In this document: in pieces, positions 862 to 26,133 of the stretch | Layout of the letters: every line of letters starts with the position of its first letter | How positions within the stretch are numbered: the first letter of the stretch is position 1 | Origin: Phycisphaerae bacterium | Lineage (GTDB): Bacteria; Planctomycetota; Phycisphaerae; JAAYCJ01 | Assembly: GCA_012729815.1 (NCBI GenBank) | Contig: JAAYCJ010000054.1 | Span: 1 to 34,006 of the forward strand | Reading direction: 5' to 3' | Length of the DNA: 34,006 nucleotides | Notes under the pieces: model-generated | The model's database searches: none | Seen by the model: only the letters and a program-made list of their open reading frames with translations | What the model was told of the DNA's origin: nothing | Program-made: the position numbers and the translations under genes

Positions 862-1728
862 ATGGGCCAGACCTACGTCGGGTTCGCCATATCCGACTGC
901 AATCCGCAGCAGCGCAATCTCTTGGAAGTACTTGAATTCCTTAATCCCGCCGACGGCGTCGAACTGCAGCCGGAGTTCGGCATCTGGGACGTTGACGCGG
1001 CCATGGATCTGCTGTGCCGCTGCCCCTTCCGCACCGTCCACGCCCCGTCCAACGGGATCGACATCTCGACTCCCACCGAACCCAAGGGCGAAGACGACAT
1101 CCGCAAGACGCTGGCCAGCATGGACTTCGCCCACCGCGTCGGCGCCGGCGCCTTTGTCATCCATCCGGTCAACGCCGAATACCCCCTGAACCTCGACGAG
1201 CGTCAGCACCGCCGGCGCGTCTTCCTGCACACGTTCCGCAACCAGATCGTCCCCCACTACCGCGACAGGGGCTATACGTTCGATCTGTGCCTGGAGAACA
1301 TCGAGTTCAGCAAGTACCCGGCCATGCTCGAGGAACTCATCGAACTCCAGGAGACCTGCAGCCAGTGGGCCCCGGTCAAGGTCGTCCTCGACGTCCCCCA
1401 CATCTGGAACACCCGCCGGATCGTCCAGGAGAACGAGGATCGGCGGCGGGCGATGTACCAGCCGTCGCTGGATGTCGGCCTGGTCGAGCAGGTGGCCGGT
1501 TTCATCGAGCAGTACCGCGACCGGATCGCGTTCTACCACCTGGCCAACTTCGGCGTCGATCCGGTTCGCACCCACGACCCGATCACCCCTACCAAGATCC
1601 ATCCCGAACTCAAGGAGATCCTCCCGCTCCTGAGCGACAAGTCCATCATTCTGGAGGTCTACACCGGACCGAGGGACAAGCTCAAGGAGTCGGAACGAAC
1701 GGTCAGATCGTTCGTCGGATCGCCATGA
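862..1728 (+). CDS. Metal-binding TIM-barrel protein, sugar isomerase / endonuclease IV fold
   Basis: This encodes 288 residues and starts at an ATG with AGGGG 7 bases upstream. The sequence has the pattern of the xylose-isomerase-like TIM barrels (AP endonuclease family 2). Candidate metal ligands sit at the ends of successive strands: H60 (in TVHAPS), H101 (VIHPVN), E145 (CLENIE), D177 and H180 (LDVPH), H226 (FYHLAN), H238-D239 (THDP) and E265 (LEVY). This resembles the three-zinc site of endonuclease IV, but the same fold includes sugar-phosphate isomerases and epimerases, and sequence alone does not separate them. The stop overlaps the start of the next gene (ATGA), so the two are translated together. 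Because that neighbour looks like a primase-type polymerase, a role in nucleic acid repair is a reasonable inference; a sugar isomerase remains the main alternative. Confidence 0.75.
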   Translation: MGQTYVGFAISDCNPQQRNLLEVLEFLNPADGVELQPEFGIWDVDAAMDLLCRCPFRTVHAPSNGIDISTPTEPKGEDDIRKTLASMDFAHRVGAGAFVIHPVNAEYPLNLDERQHRRRVFLHTFRNQIVPHYRDRGYTFDLCLENIEFSKYPAMLEELIELQETCSQWAPVKVVLDVPHIWNTRRIVQENEDRRRAMYQPSLDVGLVEQVAGFIEQYRDRIAFYHLANFGVDPVRTHDPITPTKIHPELKEILPLLSDKSIILEVYTGPRDKLKESERTVRSFVGSP

Positions 1729-3029
1729 ACCGCGAATACTATCAACACCCAGCCATCGCCGATCGCATCAGGGAATACGCCCACGACGCCGTGTTCATCA
1801 GCACGGGCGAGCCGAGCCTCGGCTATGAGCACCGTTGTCGCGGACCCGGCCGCGTTGCCGAGGCCCTCGCCAGCGGCGACGGGATCTACCGCAGCATTCT
1901 CGACTACAGCCGCGTGATCTTCGCCATTGACCTGGAGTACGGCAACAGGACATTCCCCGGCGAGATCTTCCACGAGCCGCTGACGACGTTCCAGAAGATC
2001 GAACCGACCCGCCTGGCCATCCGCGACGTCCTTAGCCGCTACGGCGTGGCGTATCTGGAGCTGATGACCGGCCAGGGCTATCACTTCGTCGCGGCCATCG
2101 AGCGGTCATCGTCGTCCTATCAGGCGCTGCTGCGGGCGGCCGGGCGTCTCGCCGTTCTGCCCGCGACCGCCGCGGCCAGGCTGATCGGGACCGTCGAGAA
2201 CGGCGACTCGGCGCCCGTGGTCCGCGACGCGAGCGTGTTTCTGATGCTCGGCCATCTGGCCGATTACATTTTCGACCGCATCCGCCTGCGCACCGAGTTG
2301 CTGCTGCGCACCTCCGACGTCTACGATCGCGACCAGATCATCATCTTCGACTCGACGCTCTACGGGTATCTGATCACCCAGCGGTCCACCCGCTGCGTGT
2401 TTTCGCTCCACCGCAAACCGCTGATCTTCCCGATCTATGAGTACCGCGGTCCGCCGCTGGTGGCCATCCCGACCGCCGGGCTCGATCTGCGGCAGTGCCT
2501 GGAAATTCGGGCCGACGACCGCGGCCACTATCAGCTCGCCGCGGAGTTGGCCGCCCGCACCACCACGGCGATCCCATCGGCTGATTTCACGCGTCTGCTC
2601 GGCGGTTATCTGACTTCCGGCGCCTATCGCCGGCATCGCCGGCTCGCCGAGCAGCTCCAAGACGCCACCGTCGAGAACGCGGAACGCGCCGCCGCGCTCG
2701 ATCTGATCCGGCGCGACGATCCCGAGATCACGGATCCGGAACGTTTCTGGGGCCCGCTGGCGGCGCCCGACTGGGCTTCGCTCTACCGCGACGGTCTCTC
2801 GGAACAGTCCGCCGCCGCCCTCGGCCGGCCCAACGATCTGCTGCTGAAGCCGACCCATCTGCGGCATCTGATCCGCGAACTGACCGATCACGGCTGCTCG
2901 GCGCCGCAGATTATCGCGGTGATCGCTGAGAAGTACCGCAGCGACTACAACTGGCAGGACGACCTGTCCAACAACGACCCGTACCTGCGGGCGGAGTACT
3001 GGCTTCGAACCCTCTCGCAGCAGTTCTGA
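1725..3029 (+). CDS. Probable archaeo-eukaryotic primase (AEP)-like protein
   Basis: This encodes 434 residues. The frame is open back to 1014, but that stretch lies antisense-frame inside the TIM-barrel gene; the ATG at 1725 is chosen because it forms an ATGA overlap with that gene's stop. Three motifs occur in the order and spacing of the AEP polymerase core. Motif I is an acidic pair after a hydrophobic strand (FAIDLEY, D69 and E71). Motif II is TGQGYHF with H120. Motif III is IIIFDS with D209, followed by R220, R223 and K231, as in the D...R.R...K pattern of PrimPol enzymes. Residues about 375-430 form a separate helical C-terminal segment ending in conserved-looking aromatic and acidic positions (YNWQDDL, DPYLRAEYW). 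No helicase or zinc-binding motif is seen. I know similar uncharacterised proteins from this phylum. The polymerase call is inference from motifs. Confidence 0.55.
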   Translation: MNREYYQHPAIADRIREYAHDAVFISTGEPSLGYEHRCRGPGRVAEALASGDGIYRSILDYSRVIFAIDLEYGNRTFPGEIFHEPLTTFQKIEPTRLAIRDVLSRYGVAYLELMTGQGYHFVAAIERSSSSYQALLRAAGRLAVLPATAAARLIGTVENGDSAPVVRDASVFLMLGHLADYIFDRIRLRTELLLRTSDVYDRDQIIIFDSTLYGYLITQRSTRCVFSLHRKPLIFPIYEYRGPPLVAIPTAGLDLRQCLEIRADDRGHYQLAAELAARTTTAIPSADFTRLLGGYLTSGAYRRHRRLAEQLQDATVENAERAAALDLIRRDDPEITDPERFWGPLAAPDWASLYRDGLSEQSAAALGRPNDLLLKPTHLRHLIRELTDHGCSAPQIIAVIAEKYRSDYNWQDDLSNNDPYLRAEYWLRTLSQQF

Positions 3030-3115: not shown

Positions 3116-6028
3116 TTACCAGAATATCCACCAGTAGATCGCGGTGAGTCCCTGGCCCCAGCGGGTGGACGGCACCAGCGGCGTCGCCTCCTGAGCATAG
3201 CCCCACGCCTGGATGTGTTGGCCGATCAAGCTTCCGCCGGTAAAGTCGGGAGCGAAACACAGGGCGCTGTAGACGCTGGCGTTCGGGTTGCCCAGGCCGC
3301 CGCACAGACCGTTCCAGTCCGTGGAGAAGAATCGCTGCACGTAGGTCTGGAAGTCATCGGCATCGCCGCCCACCATCGGGACGGGGACATCCCAGCCCAG
3401 ACAGACCTGATCGAGTTCCAGTTGGCTCGCGCTCGAGTACATCCCAAGGGCCATCGCCATGTCGTCGGACGCTCCGACCTCACAGGTATCAAGGAACGCA
3501 ATCTTGAACCGCCCGGAATCCATGAGCCCCAAAGAGCCGATCGACAGCTGCGAGTCCTGCTCGAAGACCGGCGAGAGATCCTCGTACCACGCGGGCACGG
3601 AGCTAAAGTCGCGCCTCAGGTAAGAGAATACCTCTCCGCCGTCGTACAGTTCCATCGTGGAACGGAATCCGCTTGCGGTCGGCGCGCCGCCGGCACGACC
3701 CATGCCGTAGAGGAAGTGCACATCGGGCGGATCGACGAGCCAGTGGGCCAGGTTGTCCCACGTGCAGGACCGCCCGGCCAGGACGGCGTAGTCCAGGCTC
3801 TCGTTCGTGCAGGCGTCGATGACCTGGACGATCCTGTCCCATGCCAGATGGTTGCGCCGGCTTGAGGGCAGGAAGATCAGCGCGTCGGCGGTGGATGTGC
3901 TCGCGTCGTTCGGATCGACCCACTGTCCAAGGGTGTGCGCGCAGAGGACGCGGCTGGCGCCCGCATCCTCCTCGACCACGCACTGGTTGATCTGATCGAC
4001 CAGCGCGGTGTCCGGGATCGAAACGCACAGCGAGCCGCCGGTGGTCAGCGTCACGGTCCACTGGACAGTGCCGGCGGTGTCGAAGACGCTGACGGTCAGG
4101 TCCTCGCTTCCTCCGTACATCGCGGCGAGCGGATGGTCCCGCCCGGCGATGAAGTTGTCGCTGGTGGTCAGCAGGTGCAGGTCGTTGTCGAACCAGACAG
4201 GAAGGGTCGCGGACAGCGTGACGACCGAGTTTGGATCCACGCCCACGAGCTTGAGCGCGTGAGAGCCGTTCGCTTCGGTTGACGTCTCGACCTCCAGCGA
4301 CGGACTTCCATAGGACGGATGGACCTTTCCGATGAACCGTCCGTCAAGGAAGACCTGCACATAGGCCTCTCCGGAGGTGTCGCCCGACGTTGAGGCAAGG
4401 CACCAGCCCGAAAGGTCGTTGGGATCGCCGTCGACCGTCGCGGCGATGGTCGGCCGCGTGAGGCCGGACTGGCCGTACTGGGTCGCCAGAATGCCAAGGT
4501 CACCGACGCCGACCTCGCCGTCGCGGTCGATGTCGGCCTCCAGGTAGTTGTATCCCGGCGAGGTGGTCTGGCCGTACTGCGTAGCCAGAATGCCCAGGTC
4601 GCCCACGCCGACCTGGCCGTCGCGGTTAATGTCCGCTTCAAGGTAGGTGGCGGTCCCGACATTGGCGAGGTCGAAGTTGGAGTAGTGGAATCCGATATCG
4701 ATCGTTCCGGTGTCCGGCTCGCGATCGGCCGACGTGGCCGAGCCGGTCAGCTGCGGTTCGGCGAGCCCGATCGTGCCCCACCCGGTATCGACCAGCGGCG
4801 AGTAGCGATCCAGGTAATATCCCTCCAGCGGCCCGAGGCCCGGGTCGTAGGGGCTTTCGAAGACCTCCTGCGGATAGTCCTCCACGAAGCCGGGAATCAG
4901 AACAAAGTTGCTGTTCTGGGTGTTGGCGTAGTAGCCGGTGCATACCACGATGGGAATCACGTAGCCGTCCAGGAGATCAATGCCGCACATGGTCCGCGAG
5001 ATCAGATTGCTGGTCATCTCCACCGTTCCGGCCTCCTGCGGATCGAGTGCGCCGAAGATGAGGATTCCATCCCACTCCGCCAGGTCGATCGTATTGTGGC
5101 GGATGGCCATCCTCGCATCGGGCGATGCGGGGCCGCTGAAGGAGTTCATATCGACAAAGATACCGGCGGCGGCGGAGTCGATGATCTGGTTGTTCAGCAC
5201 GTCGGTCACGTCGGCCCCGGTCTGCCAGATGCCGATGTAGGAGTGGTAGATGAAGTTGTCGTGCAGCGGCTCGTCGAGGTGGATATCCTCCGTGCCCAGG
5301 CCGACGTAGGCGAACTCGACCACGCAGAAGCAGACCTCGCAGGCCACCGAAGCCGTCGATTCGATCAGGACGGCGCAATAGTAGTCGCCCCAGGCCGGCG
5401 TTGCGGCGTCGGAGGTGAATACGATGGGATTACCCGGGGTCCCGCGGGCCACGATCGTCCCGCCGCTGTTGACCTTCAGGCGATAGCCCGAACCAAACGT
5501 CACCACGGTTCCCGGCTCGATCACCAGCAGGGCCTGGACGTTGACGTTGGCGGTCACGTGGTAGGTATTGCCGGCGGTCCAGATCGCGTTGGTGGTGATA
5601 TCGGAGTTGATCTCGATCAGCCCACTGGTTGCGCCTCCGTCCAGCGTGCCCAAGAGGGTCATAGACGGCGACTCGACAGCGGCCTGCGACTCGGCGGCCA
5701 GCGCATTCCGTTGGGCCAGGAACCGCAGGTAATCCTCGGGAGTTGCGGCAGGCATCGGCCGATCCGAAGCGGCTGGACAGGCAACCGGCAACCGCTCGCG
5801 CGACACCAGCGCCGGATCGATCCGCGGGACGCTCGTGGATGGGGCCGGCATCTGGGACGTCAACTCCCCACCCGACATCTCAGTCAAAAACGCATCGAGC
5901 TGCTCAACACTCACCTGATTGAAGTCAACCGCCGTTTCGACGCCGACGGCCGGCCAGCCGCACAACCCCGCTACCAGCGCCACCCACAGCCACGCACGCA
6001 CAGCTACGGACCGTCCTGACGTTCTCAT
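3116..6028 (-). CDS. Secreted beta-helix protein with dockerin-like repeats and a degenerate caspase-like region
   Basis: This encodes 970 residues. The ATG at 6028 is preferred over earlier in-frame starts because GGAGG lies 5 bases before it and it opens directly onto a signal peptide (basic MRTSGRS, then a hydrophobic stretch to about residue 28). Residues about 110-440 are rich in Asn, Gly and Val with repeated turns (DVLNNQII, AIRHNTIDL, EMTSNLIS), typical of a right-handed parallel beta-helix. Residues about 463-518 hold two near-identical dockerin-like calcium repeats, each reading D-x-(N/D)-R-D-G followed by VGVGDLGILATQYGQ. Residues about 650-920 resemble a caspase-like (clan CD) fold: strand YGMGRAG at 774-780 and strand IAFLDTC ending at C849. 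The usual G-H-G is G-M-G here (M776), so proteolysis is doubtful. The protein is probably extracellular or surface-bound. Confidence 0.75.
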   Translation of the reverse strand: MRTSGRSVAVRAWLWVALVAGLCGWPAVGVETAVDFNQVSVEQLDAFLTEMSGGELTSQMPAPSTSVPRIDPALVSRERLPVACPAASDRPMPAATPEDYLRFLAQRNALAAESQAAVESPSMTLLGTLDGGATSGLIEINSDITTNAIWTAGNTYHVTANVNVQALLVIEPGTVVTFGSGYRLKVNSGGTIVARGTPGNPIVFTSDAATPAWGDYYCAVLIESTASVACEVCFCVVEFAYVGLGTEDIHLDEPLHDNFIYHSYIGIWQTGADVTDVLNNQIIDSAAAGIFVDMNSFSGPASPDARMAIRHNTIDLAEWDGILIFGALDPQEAGTVEMTSNLISRTMCGIDLLDGYVIPIVVCTGYYANTQNSNFVLIPGFVEDYPQEVFESPYDPGLGPLEGYYLDRYSPLVDTGWGTIGLAEPQLTGSATSADREPDTGTIDIGFHYSNFDLANVGTATYLEADINRDGQVGVGDLGILATQYGQTTSPGYNYLEADIDRDGEVGVGDLGILATQYGQSGLTRPTIAATVDGDPNDLSGWCLASTSGDTSGEAYVQVFLDGRFIGKVHPSYGSPSLEVETSTEANGSHALKLVGVDPNSVVTLSATLPVWFDNDLHLLTTSDNFIAGRDHPLAAMYGGSEDLTVSVFDTAGTVQWTVTLTTGGSLCVSIPDTALVDQINQCVVEEDAGASRVLCAHTLGQWVDPNDASTSTADALIFLPSSRRNHLAWDRIVQVIDACTNESLDYAVLAGRSCTWDNLAHWLVDPPDVHFLYGMGRAGGAPTASGFRSTMELYDGGEVFSYLRRDFSSVPAWYEDLSPVFEQDSQLSIGSLGLMDSGRFKIAFLDTCEVGASDDMAMALGMYSSASQLELDQVCLGWDVPVPMVGGDADDFQTYVQRFFSTDWNGLCGGLGNPNASVYSALCFAPDFTGGSLIGQHIQAWGYAQEATPLVPSTRWGQGLTAIYWWIFW

Positions 6029-6397
6029 GGTTGCCTCCATCCTCGATTGACATCGTGAATCCGAATTCACATTCGACCAAACGGCGCCTGCGAGTGGAAA
6101 CATCCCGAGGCACAAGAAGCGCGGAACAAGACTCTCCGCGATCAAACACTTTCGCCTAAGACCTGCCAGCGAGAATTGTCATGCCGCCATCGGCGGTACT
6201 GCTGCCTGGGCCTCCCATCTGCGTGTTGCCCGAGGATAGGTCCGCAAAGTCAATTTACCAATGTTCAGATGGACTGTCAATGGTGTTCGCGGGAACGCTT
6301 CTGCAGACCCGGTGGCCCGACCCCGTCGGATGGGGAAGCCAAGGAGCGCCCGGATTCGCCGGATATGGACGTAACGTCGCGACGCCGATCTCGCGGC
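6029..6397. other. 369-base gap holding the leader of the beta-helix gene
   Basis: The stretch holds no gene I can support. On the minus strand a promoter at 6252-6280 would give the beta-helix gene an untranslated leader of about 215 bases. In that leader, near 6182-6200, a short inverted repeat (CCGCC, five-base loop, GGCGG) could form a hairpin. I do not recognise a riboswitch. Short frames inside have no ribosome site or known domain. Confidence 0.4.
6252..6280 (-). promoter_or_regulatory. Sigma-70-type promoter for the beta-helix gene
   Basis: Read on the minus strand, a perfect -35 box TTGACA (6275-6280) is followed after 17 bases by a -10 box TAAATT (6252-6257). It points towards the gene starting at 6028. 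Transcription would begin near 6245. Confidence 0.45.
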
Positions 6398-7783
6398 CTA
6401 GACCAGCGTGCTCCTGGTCGGATCGGGGATTCTCATCAGCAACCCGGTCAGTTCCGTGACCTCCAGGTTCGCCAGGTTGTCGACCACGTCGATGATGTCC
6501 TGCCGCAGCGGGGCCTCGACGTAGCGGGTGGCCAGGCGCTCGAATTTCGTCACCGCGTCGCTCCACGACATCGGCCGGGTGTAGAACCCGTCGTAGTCGC
6601 GCTTCTCCTTCTCGACCACCCGCCGGTCGGTCAGATAGACCCGCACGCGGCACGGCATCTCCTCCGGAAAGCGCCAACTGAATTCATCCAGCGGGCGGAC
6701 TTCCACCTTCCGCAGCAGTTCCTGGACGTCCTCGCGGCTGATCCGCTCGTGTGTGTACTGCTGCGGCAGCACGTGGCCGTCCAGCAGCGCCGCCGCAATG
6801 ACGTAGGGCAGGCTGCGATCCGCCTGCTCCTTGGTGTGCACCTCGTGGCGAGGGCCTTCCTCGCCGCCGCCGATCAGGTTGTAGGCGATCTCGAAGATGT
6901 CGATCTCCACCCGCTCGACGTCGTCGGCGGCGAATCCCTGCTCGGCCTGCAACTCGATCACCGCCTCGACCGCCGACTGGGCGTGGATGTCGGCATCATG
7001 CTTCTTGAGACACACGTGATTGATCCGTTCCAGATCCTCGACCTGCCAGTCGATCACGAAGTGACCGGCGATCGTGTCGATAAAACCCCCGCGACCCTCG
7101 AAGACGTCCAGCGGACCGGTGACCCCCTTGGCCGCCAGAAGCACCGCGTCCGTCGCCGCCAGCGCCATGTGCGGATAGGCCAGCCCGCGCCACTGCGACA
7201 ACTCGCCGCTCCGCGTGATTCGCAGACCGTTCAGCGACGCGCCGCAGATCGCCAGCGAGTTCGCCGTCCGTTCCGCGTCCAGCCCCAGCGCCTTGGCCGC
7301 GCCCGCCGCCACCGCGTACGCCCCTTGCGTCGTGTGGTCGAAACCCTTCTGTCGCACCGGAGCCAGCTCGCTCAGCCGGCAATGCACCTGGTAGGCCACC
7401 GCCAGGGCCGTCAGGAAATCCCGGCCCGAGCACTCGGCAAACTCCGACGCCGCCAGCACCGCCGAGACGTTGTCGCTCGGATGGCACGTCTCGCCCGCGG
7501 CCAGAAAGCTGTCATTGTAGTCGAGGTACCGCACCAGCGCCCCGTTGTACAGTGCCGCCCGTTCCGGCGAGACCGCCCCACCGCCGATCAGGCTGCACGA
7601 TCCACCCAACCCGAACTCCTCGATCTGGTGGCGAACCATTCGCACCGGCTCGCCCTCCAGCGCCCCGATCGCGCAGCCGAGGGCATCGAGCACACAGATG
7701 CGAAGCTGATCTCGCGCCGCCTTCGAAAGGTCGGTGAACGATGAGCGAACGACGAACTCGGCAAGTTCCCGGGCCTTGGTCAT
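6398..7783 (-). CDS. MmgE/PrpD family dehydratase
   Basis: This encodes 461 residues, the usual length for the family, starting at an ATG with AGGGGG 8 bases before it. Members include 2-methylcitrate dehydratase (PrpD), cis-aconitate decarboxylase and iminodisuccinate epimerase: cytoplasmic enzymes that dehydrate, decarboxylate or epimerise polycarboxylates. Family hallmarks are present: an N-terminal helical domain with the DALGCAIGALEGEP segment near residues 33-46, AALYNGALVRYLDYND near 77-92, a HPSDN loop at about 101-105 and the DHTTQGAYAVAAGAAKALG helix near 149-167. No methylcitrate synthase or lyase gene is nearby, so the PrpD role cannot be assigned and the substrate is unknown. The gene stands alone on this strand, 369 bases upstream of the beta-helix gene start. 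Confidence 0.85.
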   Translation of the reverse strand: MTKARELAEFVVRSSFTDLSKAARDQLRICVLDALGCAIGALEGEPVRMVRHQIEEFGLGGSCSLIGGGAVSPERAALYNGALVRYLDYNDSFLAAGETCHPSDNVSAVLAASEFAECSGRDFLTALAVAYQVHCRLSELAPVRQKGFDHTTQGAYAVAAGAAKALGLDAERTANSLAICGASLNGLRITRSGELSQWRGLAYPHMALAATDAVLLAAKGVTGPLDVFEGRGGFIDTIAGHFVIDWQVEDLERINHVCLKKHDADIHAQSAVEAVIELQAEQGFAADDVERVEIDIFEIAYNLIGGGEEGPRHEVHTKEQADRSLPYVIAAALLDGHVLPQQYTHERISREDVQELLRKVEVRPLDEFSWRFPEEMPCRVRVYLTDRRVVEKEKRDYDGFYTRPMSWSDAVTKFERLATRYVEAPLRQDIIDVVDNLANLEVTELTGLLMRIPDPTRSTLV

Positions 7784-7913
7784 GGCCGTGTCCCCCTGTC
7801 TGATCGCGAATAATGTTTCGCAGCGGCCGACGCCTCCACGGCGACGTCCGCCACCCCCAAAGCGGTATGCTATTATAACTCGTCGCCGGCCGCCCGTCCA
7901 GAACCAGCCGATT

Positions 7914-8561
7914 TCAGGCCCCGGCGGAGGCGAAAAAGCCCGGAAGCAGGCGATAGATCAACAGATTGGAGATCACCTCGCCCACGATAATCGCCGGGAC
8001 GAAAATGCCTAACGCCTTGCCTCCGCTGAGGTTGCACGATACGGCAAACCCGTTGTACATCAACGCCACCATCCAGATCACCATCAGCAAGACGACCACA
8101 ATCGCGAGCACCGCCTGGACAGAGACAATCTCCATGAGGAATTCCGGGTCCGCCACATGGCCCATCAACTCGAGCGAAAACCGCTGATACCCCGGCAGCA
8201 GCACCGCCAGGGCCGCGATCGCCATCGGCCAGCGGGCCAGCGCCTGCGTTCCCAACAGGTCCAGCGCCCTGAAGCGGGTGGACGAGACCAGCCGTCCGCC
8301 GGCCCACAGCAGCACGACCATCACGATCCAGTTGATCAACCCATCGGCCACCGCCAGACCGAACGGCGGCTCGCCCTGCGTGTGGAAGTCGAGCACGCCG
8401 TCAAAACGCGCCCGTCCGAAATACGCCACCAACCCCGCCGCTGCGATCGCCGCCAGCCCCAAACTCAGAGCCGGACCGCCCGCGATGTACCGGAACGGAT
8501 TGAACAGCCACGTCCAGATCGATCTGGCTTCGCGCACTGTCGTTGCGTCCTGCTCTGCCAT
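7914..8561 (-). CDS. Yip1-like multi-pass membrane protein
   Basis: This encodes 215 residues. An ATG at 8567 is also in frame, but GGAGG sits 7 bases before the ATG at 8561 and almost touches the upstream one, so 8561 is chosen. The protein starts with a soluble tail containing WTWLFNPFRYIAGGPAL, followed by about five hydrophobic segments. This layout is that of Yip1-domain and related integral membrane proteins often found with DUF2089 regulators. The start lies 2 bases after the stop of the DUF2089 gene, so the two are co-transcribed. Its role is unknown; the context suggests a membrane component controlled by that regulator. Confidence 0.65.
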   Translation of the reverse strand: MAEQDATTVREARSIWTWLFNPFRYIAGGPALSLGLAAIAAAGLVAYFGRARFDGVLDFHTQGEPPFGLAVADGLINWIVMVVLLWAGGRLVSSTRFRALDLLGTQALARWPMAIAALAVLLPGYQRFSLELMGHVADPEFLMEIVSVQAVLAIVVVLLMVIWMVALMYNGFAVSCNLSGGKALGIFVPAIIVGEVISNLLIYRLLPGFFASAGA

Positions 8562-8563
8562 GA

Positions 8564-8857
8564 TCATTCCTCCTTCGTCTCAACGCCTTCCAGCCGCTGC
8601 ACTTCCCGCATCAGCGCATCAAGGCGATTGCGCACCGTCGGGTACGATACGCCGTAGACCCGAGCCAGGTCCTTGAGGTTGCCGCCGCACTTGATGAAGT
8701 TCACCACCAGGGCCTGCTCTTCGCTGCGCAGCCGACAGAGCACGGGCAACCCAAACTCCCCTTCCACGCTGGTGCCGCATTCCGGACACACCAGGCGCGT
8801 CACCCGCAGCCCAGCCCGGCAACTCGGACACTCGATCGGAAGCAATCGTTCATCCAT
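8564..8857 (-). CDS. DUF2089-type zinc-ribbon and helix-turn-helix regulator
   Basis: This encodes 97 residues. The ATG at 8857 is chosen over an earlier one at 8893 because AAGGAG stands 7 bases upstream. The N-terminus has two Cys-x2-Cys knuckles (CPSC and CPEC, residues about 9-27), a zinc ribbon. The C-terminal half has a helix-turn-helix of the form NLKDLARVYGVSYPTVRNRL (about 62-81), with the SYPTVRNRLD recognition helix typical of DUF2089. Such proteins are small probable transcription regulators found beside membrane-protein genes. The first 8 bases overlap the end of the CPBP protease gene, and the stop is 2 bases before the Yip1-like gene, so the three form one operon. Confidence 0.8.
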   Translation of the reverse strand: MDERLLPIECPSCRAGLRVTRLVCPECGTSVEGEFGLPVLCRLRSEEQALVVNFIKCGGNLKDLARVYGVSYPTVRNRLDALMREVQRLEGVETKEE

Positions 8858-22995: not shown

Positions 22996-25900
22996 CTACG
23001 GCAGCAATCGGACGGTGTAGCCGGTGACCGGCTGGCCTTCCTTGTCCAGGAGCCGGAGAAACAGCTCGTGGCCGCCGATGTCGTTGTGGATTTTGACCAG
23101 CAGGCGATGCTGGCCCTTGCTCAGTTGGACGGGGTATTGCTCCTGGTCGCGTTCGGCTTGGCGGAAGGCGACGTTCTCGGCGACCAGGTTCTCGTCGATC
23201 CAGAGCCGGTAGCCGTCGTCGCTGCCGATCGAGAGGGTCACATCCATGTCCTGCGGCACCACGATATAGGCGGCAGCGTATCCGATGCACTGCTCGACGA
23301 TGCTGCCCTGTTCGACGAGAAGCGGGCTGGTGAAGTGCTTGGTCAGGTCGACGCGGGCGTCGTCGGCGTGCAGCGGCTGCCAAGCCACCCGCACGTCGAC
23401 CGGGTTCCACTTGGGTTCCGGCACCGATGGGAAGAACGCGAAGTGTTCCTGGTCGACGCGCGGCTGAATGACCGGCTCACCGCGGCCGTGGCCGTAAATC
23501 CAGCAGACGTCGAGGAAATCGCTGTCCCAGTTGGCCGGCGTCTTGTCGATCGCCCATCGCAGGCCGGGCGAGGGGAACGGGCCGCAGACCAGCCAGTCGC
23601 GGATGAAACCCTGCTCGTCCGGCGTGAAGTCCTTCGACCAGATCTCCTGCATCTCGGTGATCGGCGGCGTGAGGCGCGGCACGTGGAACGCTGAGAACTC
23701 GGTGACCTTGGCGCCGCGGTCGTTGTCGCAGGCGATGATCATACGAAGTTGCCGGGTCTTGACCTCGGTGATCGTGTAGTCCTCGAGGGGCAGGCCGGGG
23801 CTTCGCCAGTCGGGCGTGCCGCTGCACGGCCGCCACTTGGCCCCGTCGAACCACTCGGCTTTGTAGCGGTCGGGCAGGGCGTCGGTGGGCCAGGCGCAGA
23901 TCAGGCGGTTGATCGTCTGCGGTTGCGGCCAGCGGTATTCGATCCAGTGTTCGCCCTTGGCCGGTGCCGAGGCCCAGGCTGCGCCGTCGGTCTTGCCGTC
24001 GCGAACGGCATCGAGGGTGGCCCCTTCGGCCGTCGAGTCGGCGGCGAGCTCGGCTTGGTCTTTGTAGTCCGTCGCGGTCAAGCGGGTCTGAACCTTGTCC
24101 GGGGCGAGCACGTCGTCCTGCTCGACTCGCACGCTCAGGCTGGCCAGATAAGCGTCGATCGCCTCGCGCGTTCCCGTCAGCAGCAGCGGCGAGGAGCCGA
24201 TCTGGAGTTGGCCCTCGGTCGTCAGCGGGTTGCAGAACAGATCCATCAGTTGGATGCTTTGGTCCTTCGGCGGCTGGATGAAGCGGCTCTCGCCGAGTTT
24301 CAGACGGATCGCCCAGACGCCCGCGATCGTCCGATCGCCCTTCTTGAACCGCAGCCCCCACAGACCCTCCGGCAACTCCGGCCGACCGTCCGGCGATGCG
24401 CCGGTCAGCAGGCGGTTGACCTGGGCCATCGCCACCGCGGCCGGCAGCGGCGTCTCCTCCCAGTCCGTCAGCGCCCACGAATTGCCGTACGCCGTCCCGC
24501 TGTGATAGTAATTCCAGCGGATGTTGTAGTGCAGATGCAGCATCAGGTAGCGGGCCGCCATGGCTGTGCCGAGTTGATATGAGACGGGCGTCCGCTTGAC
24601 GAATCCCTTGCCGCTCCAGAGGCCGTAGGGCATCGTGCCGCCGATGTAGAAGCTTTCCATCGGGCACAGGCCGGACTCGGTATCCCAGAGCATCTTGCCC
24701 GCCCCGCCGTGCTCGTCGAGGATCGTCCGCAGGCCCTGGACGTACTCGTCGAACCGCAGGTCCATATCAAGCGGATGGGTTCCGCCGCCGCCGAAGTACA
24801 GGTGCGCGCTGATCACGTCGAGCGGTTTGCAGAAGCCGGCTTTGGCCATTTTCTCCCACCACTTGAGGCCGGGCGGAATCTCTTCCGGCGGGCCGCCGGC
24901 CAGGATGGTGGCGTTCGGATCGGCCTCGCGGATGACCTTCGCCGTCTCGGCGACCCGCTTGACGTGCCTGGCGACGAACTCATCGGTCGGCTGATCGTAC
25001 GGCTCGTTGTAGATTTCGTAGGCCTTGATCCGGCCGCGATAGTGCTCAGCCACTGCGCGGACGTAGGCCAACCACAATTGATCGTAATCGTCGCGACCGA
25101 TTGCCCAGTCCGGGGCTCGCTCCAGGACGACCAGTTCGGCCAGCGGCGCATCGAGCGGCTCATAGTCGAACTGGAACGGCCCGTTCTCCTCCGGCTGGAC
25201 CGTACGCCAGAAGAGCTCGCCGCCGCCGATGTCCCACTTGCGGTTCCACTTGGCGCCCATCCAGCGGAGCAGCGGCAGGTTGCCGTGTCCGCCCACCAGG
25301 TCGTTGACCGGCGGTTCCAGCGGCGACGCCACGCGGCTGACCATACGCTGATAGTCCCGCTGCGCGCCGTCCGGCATGGTCACCAGGAATCGCAGCAGGT
25401 ACGGGCCGAACCTGGCCGGCACGGGGATGACTTCCATCCTCTGCCGCGGGGCATCGCCTCCCAGCGGAAAGGTGAAATCGTACTGGCCGACCTGCTCGTG
25501 TTCGTAATCCAAAATGATGCAGTGGACTTTGGCCTCGCCGTTGATGCCTTCCGACGCGCCGCCTCTCACGCGAATCTCGACCGGCATCTCCGGTGTCACC
25601 CAGATCGGATGGAGGTGCTTTTCGGGCCAGTCCAGCAGCAGCGTTGACCACTTCTCCACCGCCAGTCCCGCCGTCGGCTTGTATTGCTCCGGAAGCGGCT
25701 CGCCCGCCGGTACGATGGTGAACCAGTCGATCATCGCGGCGGCATCGCCCCATAGGTCGAAGCAATCCGTCGCACAGGTCGTGCCGAACCGGAAGGGCCC
25801 GATCACAGCCGGACCGGACGGATTGGCGTAGGCCACCGGGAATACCGCGTCGGCCACCGCCACATCGAACCGCACGCGCTCGCCGGCACTTTCGTGGTGC

Positions 25901-26133
25901 GTCGCCCGCAGGTAAAAATCATAGTCGTTACCCGGCAGCGACTCGCCCTCGCCAAAGACCACCCGGGCCAGGTCCTGCGGATTGAGACCCAGGCTCTGAA
26001 AGCCGTTGGGAAACATGTAACGCGGCGTCAGCGTGCACCGGACATCGCAGTTGATCGGATTGGCGACTTGCGCATGCACCAGACCACCCAAAGACAGCGC
26101 AGCGAGAACAACCGCGAGTGAGCATTTTCGCAT
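22996..26133 (-). CDS. Large secreted glycoside hydrolase, clan GH-A type
   Basis: This encodes 1,045 residues, with AAAGGAG 8 bases before the ATG and a signal peptide ending near A21. After a beta-rich N-terminal region, residues about 280-580 form a (beta/alpha)8 barrel of the GH-A clan: the acid/base is probably E377 in AYEIYNEPYD, and the nucleophile E486 in MLWDTESG. The 109-residue gap fits the clan, and the layout recalls GH39 or GH5 relatives. Residues about 690-830 resemble an F5/8-type (discoidin) carbohydrate-binding domain (EHWIEYRWPQPQTINRLICAWP). Residues about 845-1045 resemble another beta-sandwich (RDWLVCGPFPSPG; IGSDDGYRLWIDENLVAEN, PA14-like). It probably acts outside the cytoplasm on a polysaccharide; the substrate is not known. 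Confidence 0.75.
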   Translation of the reverse strand: MRKCSLAVVLAALSLGGLVHAQVANPINCDVRCTLTPRYMFPNGFQSLGLNPQDLARVVFGEGESLPGNDYDFYLRATHHESAGERVRFDVAVADAVFPVAYANPSGPAVIGPFRFGTTCATDCFDLWGDAAAMIDWFTIVPAGEPLPEQYKPTAGLAVEKWSTLLLDWPEKHLHPIWVTPEMPVEIRVRGGASEGINGEAKVHCIILDYEHEQVGQYDFTFPLGGDAPRQRMEVIPVPARFGPYLLRFLVTMPDGAQRDYQRMVSRVASPLEPPVNDLVGGHGNLPLLRWMGAKWNRKWDIGGGELFWRTVQPEENGPFQFDYEPLDAPLAELVVLERAPDWAIGRDDYDQLWLAYVRAVAEHYRGRIKAYEIYNEPYDQPTDEFVARHVKRVAETAKVIREADPNATILAGGPPEEIPPGLKWWEKMAKAGFCKPLDVISAHLYFGGGGTHPLDMDLRFDEYVQGLRTILDEHGGAGKMLWDTESGLCPMESFYIGGTMPYGLWSGKGFVKRTPVSYQLGTAMAARYLMLHLHYNIRWNYYHSGTAYGNSWALTDWEETPLPAAVAMAQVNRLLTGASPDGRPELPEGLWGLRFKKGDRTIAGVWAIRLKLGESRFIQPPKDQSIQLMDLFCNPLTTEGQLQIGSSPLLLTGTREAIDAYLASLSVRVEQDDVLAPDKVQTRLTATDYKDQAELAADSTAEGATLDAVRDGKTDGAAWASAPAKGEHWIEYRWPQPQTINRLICAWPTDALPDRYKAEWFDGAKWRPCSGTPDWRSPGLPLEDYTITEVKTRQLRMIIACDNDRGAKVTEFSAFHVPRLTPPITEMQEIWSKDFTPDEQGFIRDWLVCGPFPSPGLRWAIDKTPANWDSDFLDVCWIYGHGRGEPVIQPRVDQEHFAFFPSVPEPKWNPVDVRVAWQPLHADDARVDLTKHFTSPLLVEQGSIVEQCIGYAAAYIVVPQDMDVTLSIGSDDGYRLWIDENLVAENVAFRQAERDQEQYPVQLSKGQHRLLVKIHNDIGGHELFLRLLDKEGQPVTGYTVRLLP

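Follow-up and report, generated by a model that had tools for sequence, protein, structure and literature searches.

The window analysed here is a 34,006-nucleotide stretch of DNA from a Phycisphaerae bacterium, and two neighbouring genes near its start are the subject of this work. The first gene (862–1728, +) encodes P0001, a TIM-barrel protein of 288 aa in the AP_endonuc_2 (endonuclease IV, Endo IV) superfamily. The second gene (1725–3029, +) encodes P0002, a predicted AEP-superfamily protein of 434 aa. As seen in the sequence and in the junction table, the stop codon of P0001 and the start codon of P0002 lie in an ATGA overlap (1725–1728, +), which is likely to couple their translation. 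A first-pass annotation had described two ORFs joined in this way, and both are present. It had also reported no ligase or Ku gene nearby; we recognised neither of these, nor a glycosylase gene, next to the pair.

The ORF immediately upstream of the pair has no Pfam match, and the next genes downstream are beta-helix-like and MmgE/PrpD. At 3119–6034 (−) the window encodes a protein that looks secreted. Its beta-helix match is weak and falls just short of the Pfam cutoff, and it carries a DINRDGQVGVGDLGILATQYGQ dockerin-like repeat in two tandem copies. Another gene, at 22999–26133 (−), encodes a 1045-aa protein with weak matches to a cellulase family, F5/F8 and PA14.

Elsewhere, the same genome encodes a canonical Nfo (G000:C27, 254 bits), a LigD-type polymerase (G000:C179, TIGR02778 match) and Ku. 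Since the cell has its own set of these enzymes, the P0001/P0002 pair is an additional system. P0002 was considered as the NHEJ polymerase of the cell and rejected, as the LigD polymerase is another gene.

Fold and family of P0002

P0002 matched nothing beyond chance in Pfam, NCBIfam, PHROG or PADLOC. NCBIfam gave no match of any kind at E-values up to 10, LigD_pol (TIGR02778) included. We compared P0002 with its relatives in a 39-row alignment (A1), in which family members are 23–31% identical to P0002. None of the 39 members belongs to a confident Pfam or NCBIfam family, which bears out the first-pass view of the family as uncharacterised, and no description of the family or of the gene pair was found in the open-access literature searched. 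P0002 belongs to a new AEP family that is absent from these libraries and this literature.

The AEP motif set (DxD/E, an sxH-type motif, a third Asp and basic residues) is present in the family. In alignment A1, motif I of P0002 is D69-x-E71, motif II is G118-Y-H120 and motif III is D209, with R220/R223/K231 as the basic set. The first-pass numbering (D69-L-E71, TGQGYH to H120, FDS with D209, then R220, R223 and K231) was correct. D69, Y72, T115, G118, Y119, H120, D209, R220, R223, F226, S227 and K231 are invariant in the 39 rows, and E71 is kept in at least 90%. A 46-row version of the alignment gave the same picture.

Sequence searches of the PDB with P0002 and with alignments A1 and A3 returned chance matches only. 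The structure of P0002 was predicted by AlphaFold2 with the 39-row alignment as input (pLDDT 83.5, pTM 0.87). The model has an RRM-like catalytic core, and its best PDB matches in Foldseek were all AEPs, with a probability of 1.00. The five top matches were M. smegmatis Prim-PolC (E 8.3e-5 to 1.7e-4; TM 0.51–0.53 by target length). LigD polymerase domains followed (9e-4), and then, more weakly, RepB', CAPP and archaeal and human PriS. D69 and E71 lie within strand 63–74, H120 lies within strand 118–126 and D209 ends strand 204–209, as expected for an AEP core. The first-pass claim of an AEP fold, for which structure prediction had been suggested as the check, therefore agrees with the model: the core was found, with the motif residues within its strands or at their ends. 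P0002 is almost certainly an AEP, because its predicted structure matches Prim-PolC, the LigD polymerase domain and CAPP.

We also aligned the P0002 profile with the genome's own LigD polymerase by hhalign. Motifs I and II were in register, with weak statistics (one-template E 0.015, probability 2.9). GQGYH was paired with GSKGMH; the pairing of DLE with DLD is our own reading of residues next to that block, outside the alignment proper.

Among solved structures, those of Prim-PolC, the LigC-associated Prim-Pol of Mycobacterium smegmatis (PDB 5op0, 6sa0, 6sa1), come closest to the P0002 model, at about 12% identity in the structural alignment. The helical C-terminal region of P0002 is longer than that of Prim-PolC, no ligase gene was recognised next to P0002, and the protein has no ligD_pol match. 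The LigD polymerase domain (2fao, 2iru, 2r9l) and CAPP (7p9j, 7nqd) have the AEP fold in common with P0002. Unlike them, P0002 shows no link to Ku, ligase or CRISPR genes in this analysis.

In most relatives of P0002 the C-terminus is a helical domain in which four Cys are conserved. One is near position 361, and the other three form C-x8-C-x4-C in NC.S..EKG.C...CG. The C-terminal domain of P0002 itself is helical and lacks this four-Cys tail, and in several Phycisphaerae relatives the Cys positions are partly lost, as in a decaying motif. A metal or Fe-S site is likely in the relatives that bear the tail. One example of the tail behind an AEP core is at L025:6886–7395, where an Fe-S or Zn site is possible.

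A relation of PriCT domains to the PriL Fe-S domain has been described (PMC5862659). Most P0002 relatives likewise have a helical four-Cys C-terminal domain behind the AEP core. Its Cys spacing recalls the PriL Fe-S domain, and homology to PriL is unproven. DNA_primase_lrg (PF04104) matched weakly in two family members, with a best E of 0.02. Folded separately, the C-terminal domain gave a confident model (pLDDT 90), yet it had no PDB match, which lends no support to a PriL-like Fe-S fold. The absence of a structural match sets the domain apart from PriL and PriCT, and the window protein lacks the tail as well.

A scan of one genome per species found 33 loci with full or near-full-length relatives of P0002, at 23–29% identity. 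They come from Hydrogenedentes, Elusimicrobia, Auribacterota, Lindowbacteria, Chloroflexi, Schekmanbacteria, Dependentiae and other lineages. Within Phycisphaerae the family is carried by 5 of 347 genomes, that is, the window's own genome and four further loci. P0002 forms a very long branch in the tree, for which firm placement was not obtained, and its function may therefore have drifted. The family looks cellular, since searches of viral contigs, phages and plasmids gave no relatives. Together with the lack of any viral fold match below 1e-3, this led us to reject a viral or plasmid origin. A defence system was rejected as well, given that PADLOC had no match.

The barrel protein P0001 and its putative metal site

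P0001 passes the Pfam model AP_endonuc_2 (PF01261) with 38.9 bits against a cutoff of 31.1 (E 1.1e-9). In an alignment of 14 AEP-adjacent barrels, H60, H101, E145, D177, H180, H226 and E265 are invariant. From this alignment and a comparison with E. coli Nfo, these residues and H238-D239 are the putative metal ligands of P0001. The barrels keep seven of the nine metal ligand positions of Nfo, where the equivalent of Nfo H69 was assigned by motif since the aligner slipped there. The Nfo ligands are given in the numbering of that enzyme. At Nfo D229-x-H231, most adjacent barrels have D-x-H and P0001 has H238-D239. A THDP motif is common to P0001 and its relative at L025. Judged from these residues, the ligand set of the barrel is Endo IV/CbiR-like. 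The Pfam match and the invariant putative ligands support the first-pass description of a barrel with a His/Asp/Glu metal site.

P0001 had no match to TIGR00587 (Nfo). Its sole NCBIfam match was the CbiR model NF041277, at 33.3 bits and far below the cutoff of 105. This was also the one model that matched P0001 and all 14 adjacent barrels (best E 1.8e-18), and CbiR, a cobamide phosphodiesterase, is thus the nearest named model. When the barrel profile was compared with the PDB, MJ1311 was the best match (PDB 3wqo, E 4e-39; the record used gives it no name beyond "uncharacterised protein"), followed by IolI and epimerases and then by endonuclease IV (about 1e-14). In the tree, P0001 grouped with the L025 barrel (99/97) on a branch separate from Nfo, whereas the genome's Nfo grouped with E. 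coli Nfo (100/100). The tree did not show all adjacent barrels as a single clade.

These results uphold "Endo IV-fold" in the first-pass description of P0001 and speak against "endonuclease IV". By sequence, the class of P0001 is nearer to MJ1311, sugar epimerases and CbiR. We rejected P0001 as the endonuclease IV of the cell: it shares the PF01261 superfamily with Nfo, but it has no TIGR00587 match and stands apart from Nfo in the tree, and the real Nfo is encoded elsewhere.

CbiR cleaves a cofactor (PMC7733943), so the Endo IV superfamily includes substrates other than DNA and sugars. The CbiR homologues in the defining paper were chosen by their cobamide-gene neighbours (PMC7733943), whereas the adjacent barrels here were picked by their AEP neighbour. 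In the displayed alignment, IolI has no equivalents of H60 and H101. Because both residues are retained in the barrels, we favour a phosphoesterase-type site, and the barrel is probably a phosphoesterase rather than a sugar isomerase.

Gene neighbourhoods of the AEP family

The first-pass annotation proposed checking across genomes whether the two genes stay adjacent. Of 37 testable loci, 15 have a PF01261 barrel beside the AEP gene and on the same strand, and these 15 come from several phyla. The 37 loci are the window, the scanned loci and the Phycisphaerae loci; L034, which ends at the gene, was left out, and L002 and L003, both distant and partial matches, did not enter the count. Several of the 37 have a contig end close by on one side. 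Ten of the 33 scanned loci have an adjacent barrel. It is downstream of the AEP gene in L014, L015, L016, L017, L019, L022, L030, L032 and L033, and upstream in L025, as in the window. All four other Phycisphaerae carriers (L050–L053) have the barrel immediately downstream of the AEP gene. L014, L016 and L019 are near-copies, which leaves about 13 of the 15 adjacencies independent.

We examined 13 pair junctions. All are same-strand and range from a 59-bp overlap to a 137-bp gap, and seven of them overlap or sit within 10 bp. Both gene orders occur, barrel–AEP in the window and L025 and AEP–barrel elsewhere, so the adjacency persists across rearrangement. By chance, about 0.5 of the 37 loci would have an adjacent barrel (rough binomial P of 1e-16 or lower). 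This estimate takes the 31 PF01261 genes of the window's genome, with 4,700 genes assumed, as the density for all genomes and ignores relatedness. The gene pair is thus conserved well above that expectation, in support of the first-pass annotation, and the two genes are very probably linked in function.

An adjacent barrel is absent at the other 22 loci. In several genomes that lack the adjacency, a gene elsewhere still matches the barrel profile strongly, with E of 1e-63 to 1e-75 in the Elusimicrobia set. Ten of the 22 loci have a tandem AEP paralogue instead (L009, L010, L011, L012, L018, L020, L023, L026, L029 and L031), mostly in Auribacterota/PVC-type genomes; one example is L029:5986–7392 and 7398–8816. 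The tandem paralogues are possibly a two-subunit primase. In the Elusimicrobia loci L005, L007, L008, L024 and L027, which have no barrel beside the AEP gene, the tail-bearing AEP is flanked, in conserved order, by a short conserved protein on one side and a lipoprotein-like gene on the other. At L006:8476–8922, about 1.4 kb downstream of an AEP family member, we found an HhH-GPD base-excision glycosylase-like protein (Pfam E 9e-7).

Elusimicrobia also carry a second, tail-less form of the AEP, with E of about 1e-70 to the family profile. Together with its upstream region it is found at L061:2158–4343, L062:3097–5300, L063:5008–7394 and L064:3854–5146. At all four Elusimicrobia loci with enough upstream sequence, genes for a PHP-domain protein and PIN-PhoH lie upstream of the tail-less AEP. 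The PHP and AEP genes share an ATGA overlap in L061 and L062. A Clp-like ATPase is also next to the tail-less AEP. Besides the Endo IV-superfamily barrel, the AEP family thus has PHP as a second coupled fold of the metal-phosphoesterase kind, and this fits an end-cleaning or proofreading partner.

Possible roles of the pair

AEP polymerases outside replication have been recognised via their gene partners, which are Ku and LigD, LigC, and CRISPR genes. Prim-PolC fills gaps of 1–3 nt left by BER enzymes in excision repair, using ribonucleotides; of the end-processing nucleases in the reconstitution, Endo IV performed best (PMC5663958). By analogy with Prim-PolC and Endo IV, the two genes may encode a DNA end-processing and gap-filling module with a joint incise/trim-and-fill role, a reading to which we give slightly less than an even chance. 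P0001, as a metal-dependent phosphoesterase, would incise or trim the DNA where it is damaged or blocked, and so produce a 3'-OH. P0002 would next insert one or a few nucleotides into the short gap, and a housekeeping ligase would close the nick. On the same analogy we infer the substrate, the reaction order, the nucleotide preference, the physical interaction and the repair role of the pair. It counts against a repair module that the barrel profile prefers MJ1311 and epimerases in the PDB, and CbiR in NCBIfam, over Endo IV. So do the 22 loci with no barrel next to the AEP gene, the H238-D239 of P0001 in place of D229-x-H231, the long branch of P0002 and the lack of a recognised ligase, glycosylase or Ku gene next to the window pair.

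The barrel could instead be a 3'-5' exonuclease or primer-trimming subunit that edits the AEP product, and the pair would then be a proofreading polymerase, not a base-excision module. This reading draws its main support from Elusimicrobia: both partner folds, barrel and PHP, are known for metal-dependent phosphoester cleavage, and the tail-less Elusimicrobia AEP lies directly downstream of the PHP phosphoesterase, with the overlap noted above. Published work on M. tuberculosis DnaE1 describes proofreading by a trinuclear zinc PHP exonuclease (PMC5636811), to which such a pair would be analogous. However, the precedent nearest to this AEP fold is gap filling after excision (PMC5663958), and we consider proofreading somewhat unlikely for P0001/P0002. 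A priming or fork-restart enzyme is a less probable reading still. Its C-terminal domain would be PriL/PriCT-like, and the barrel would be an accessory acting on stalled-fork ends. The four-Cys helical domain of the relatives, the PF04104 matches in two members and the reported relation between PriCT and PriL (PMC5862659) would fit this, but the C-terminal domain model matches nothing in the PDB, the Cys positions are lost in the window protein and in several Phycisphaerae relatives, and the loci inspected had no recognisable helicase gene beside them.

It is improbable that the barrel acts on a small molecule, as a CbiR-like cofactor phosphodiesterase or a sugar epimerase, with the AEP either separate or making a small nucleotide product. 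NF041277 matches every adjacent barrel, and MJ1311 and epimerases are nearest in the PDB; but P0001 reaches only 33 bits against the CbiR cutoff of 105, the barrels keep the H60 and H101 that IolI lacks, and a metabolic enzyme is not expected repeatedly beside a polymerase-fold protein. Chance adjacency of two unrelated genes is very improbable indeed. The genome has 31 PF01261 matches and 22 of the 37 loci have no adjacent barrel, yet 15 adjacencies were observed against about 0.5 expected, on the same strand, with overlaps, in several phyla and in both orders.

More generally, we tentatively suggest that the AEP family and a phosphoesterase of either fold, Endo IV-superfamily barrel or PHP, form a dedicated excision-resynthesis or proofreading module, separate from LigD/Ku NHEJ and from the canonical Nfo of the same cell. 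P0002 stands for a further AEP family, which neither Pfam nor NCBIfam names and which in uncultured bacterial phyla repeatedly has a nuclease-type partner. The pair recurs in several bacterial phyla that are unrelated to one another, which points to a DNA-repair-like partnership not studied so far. If the incise/trim-and-fill role is true, the pair would be a compact two-protein repair module.
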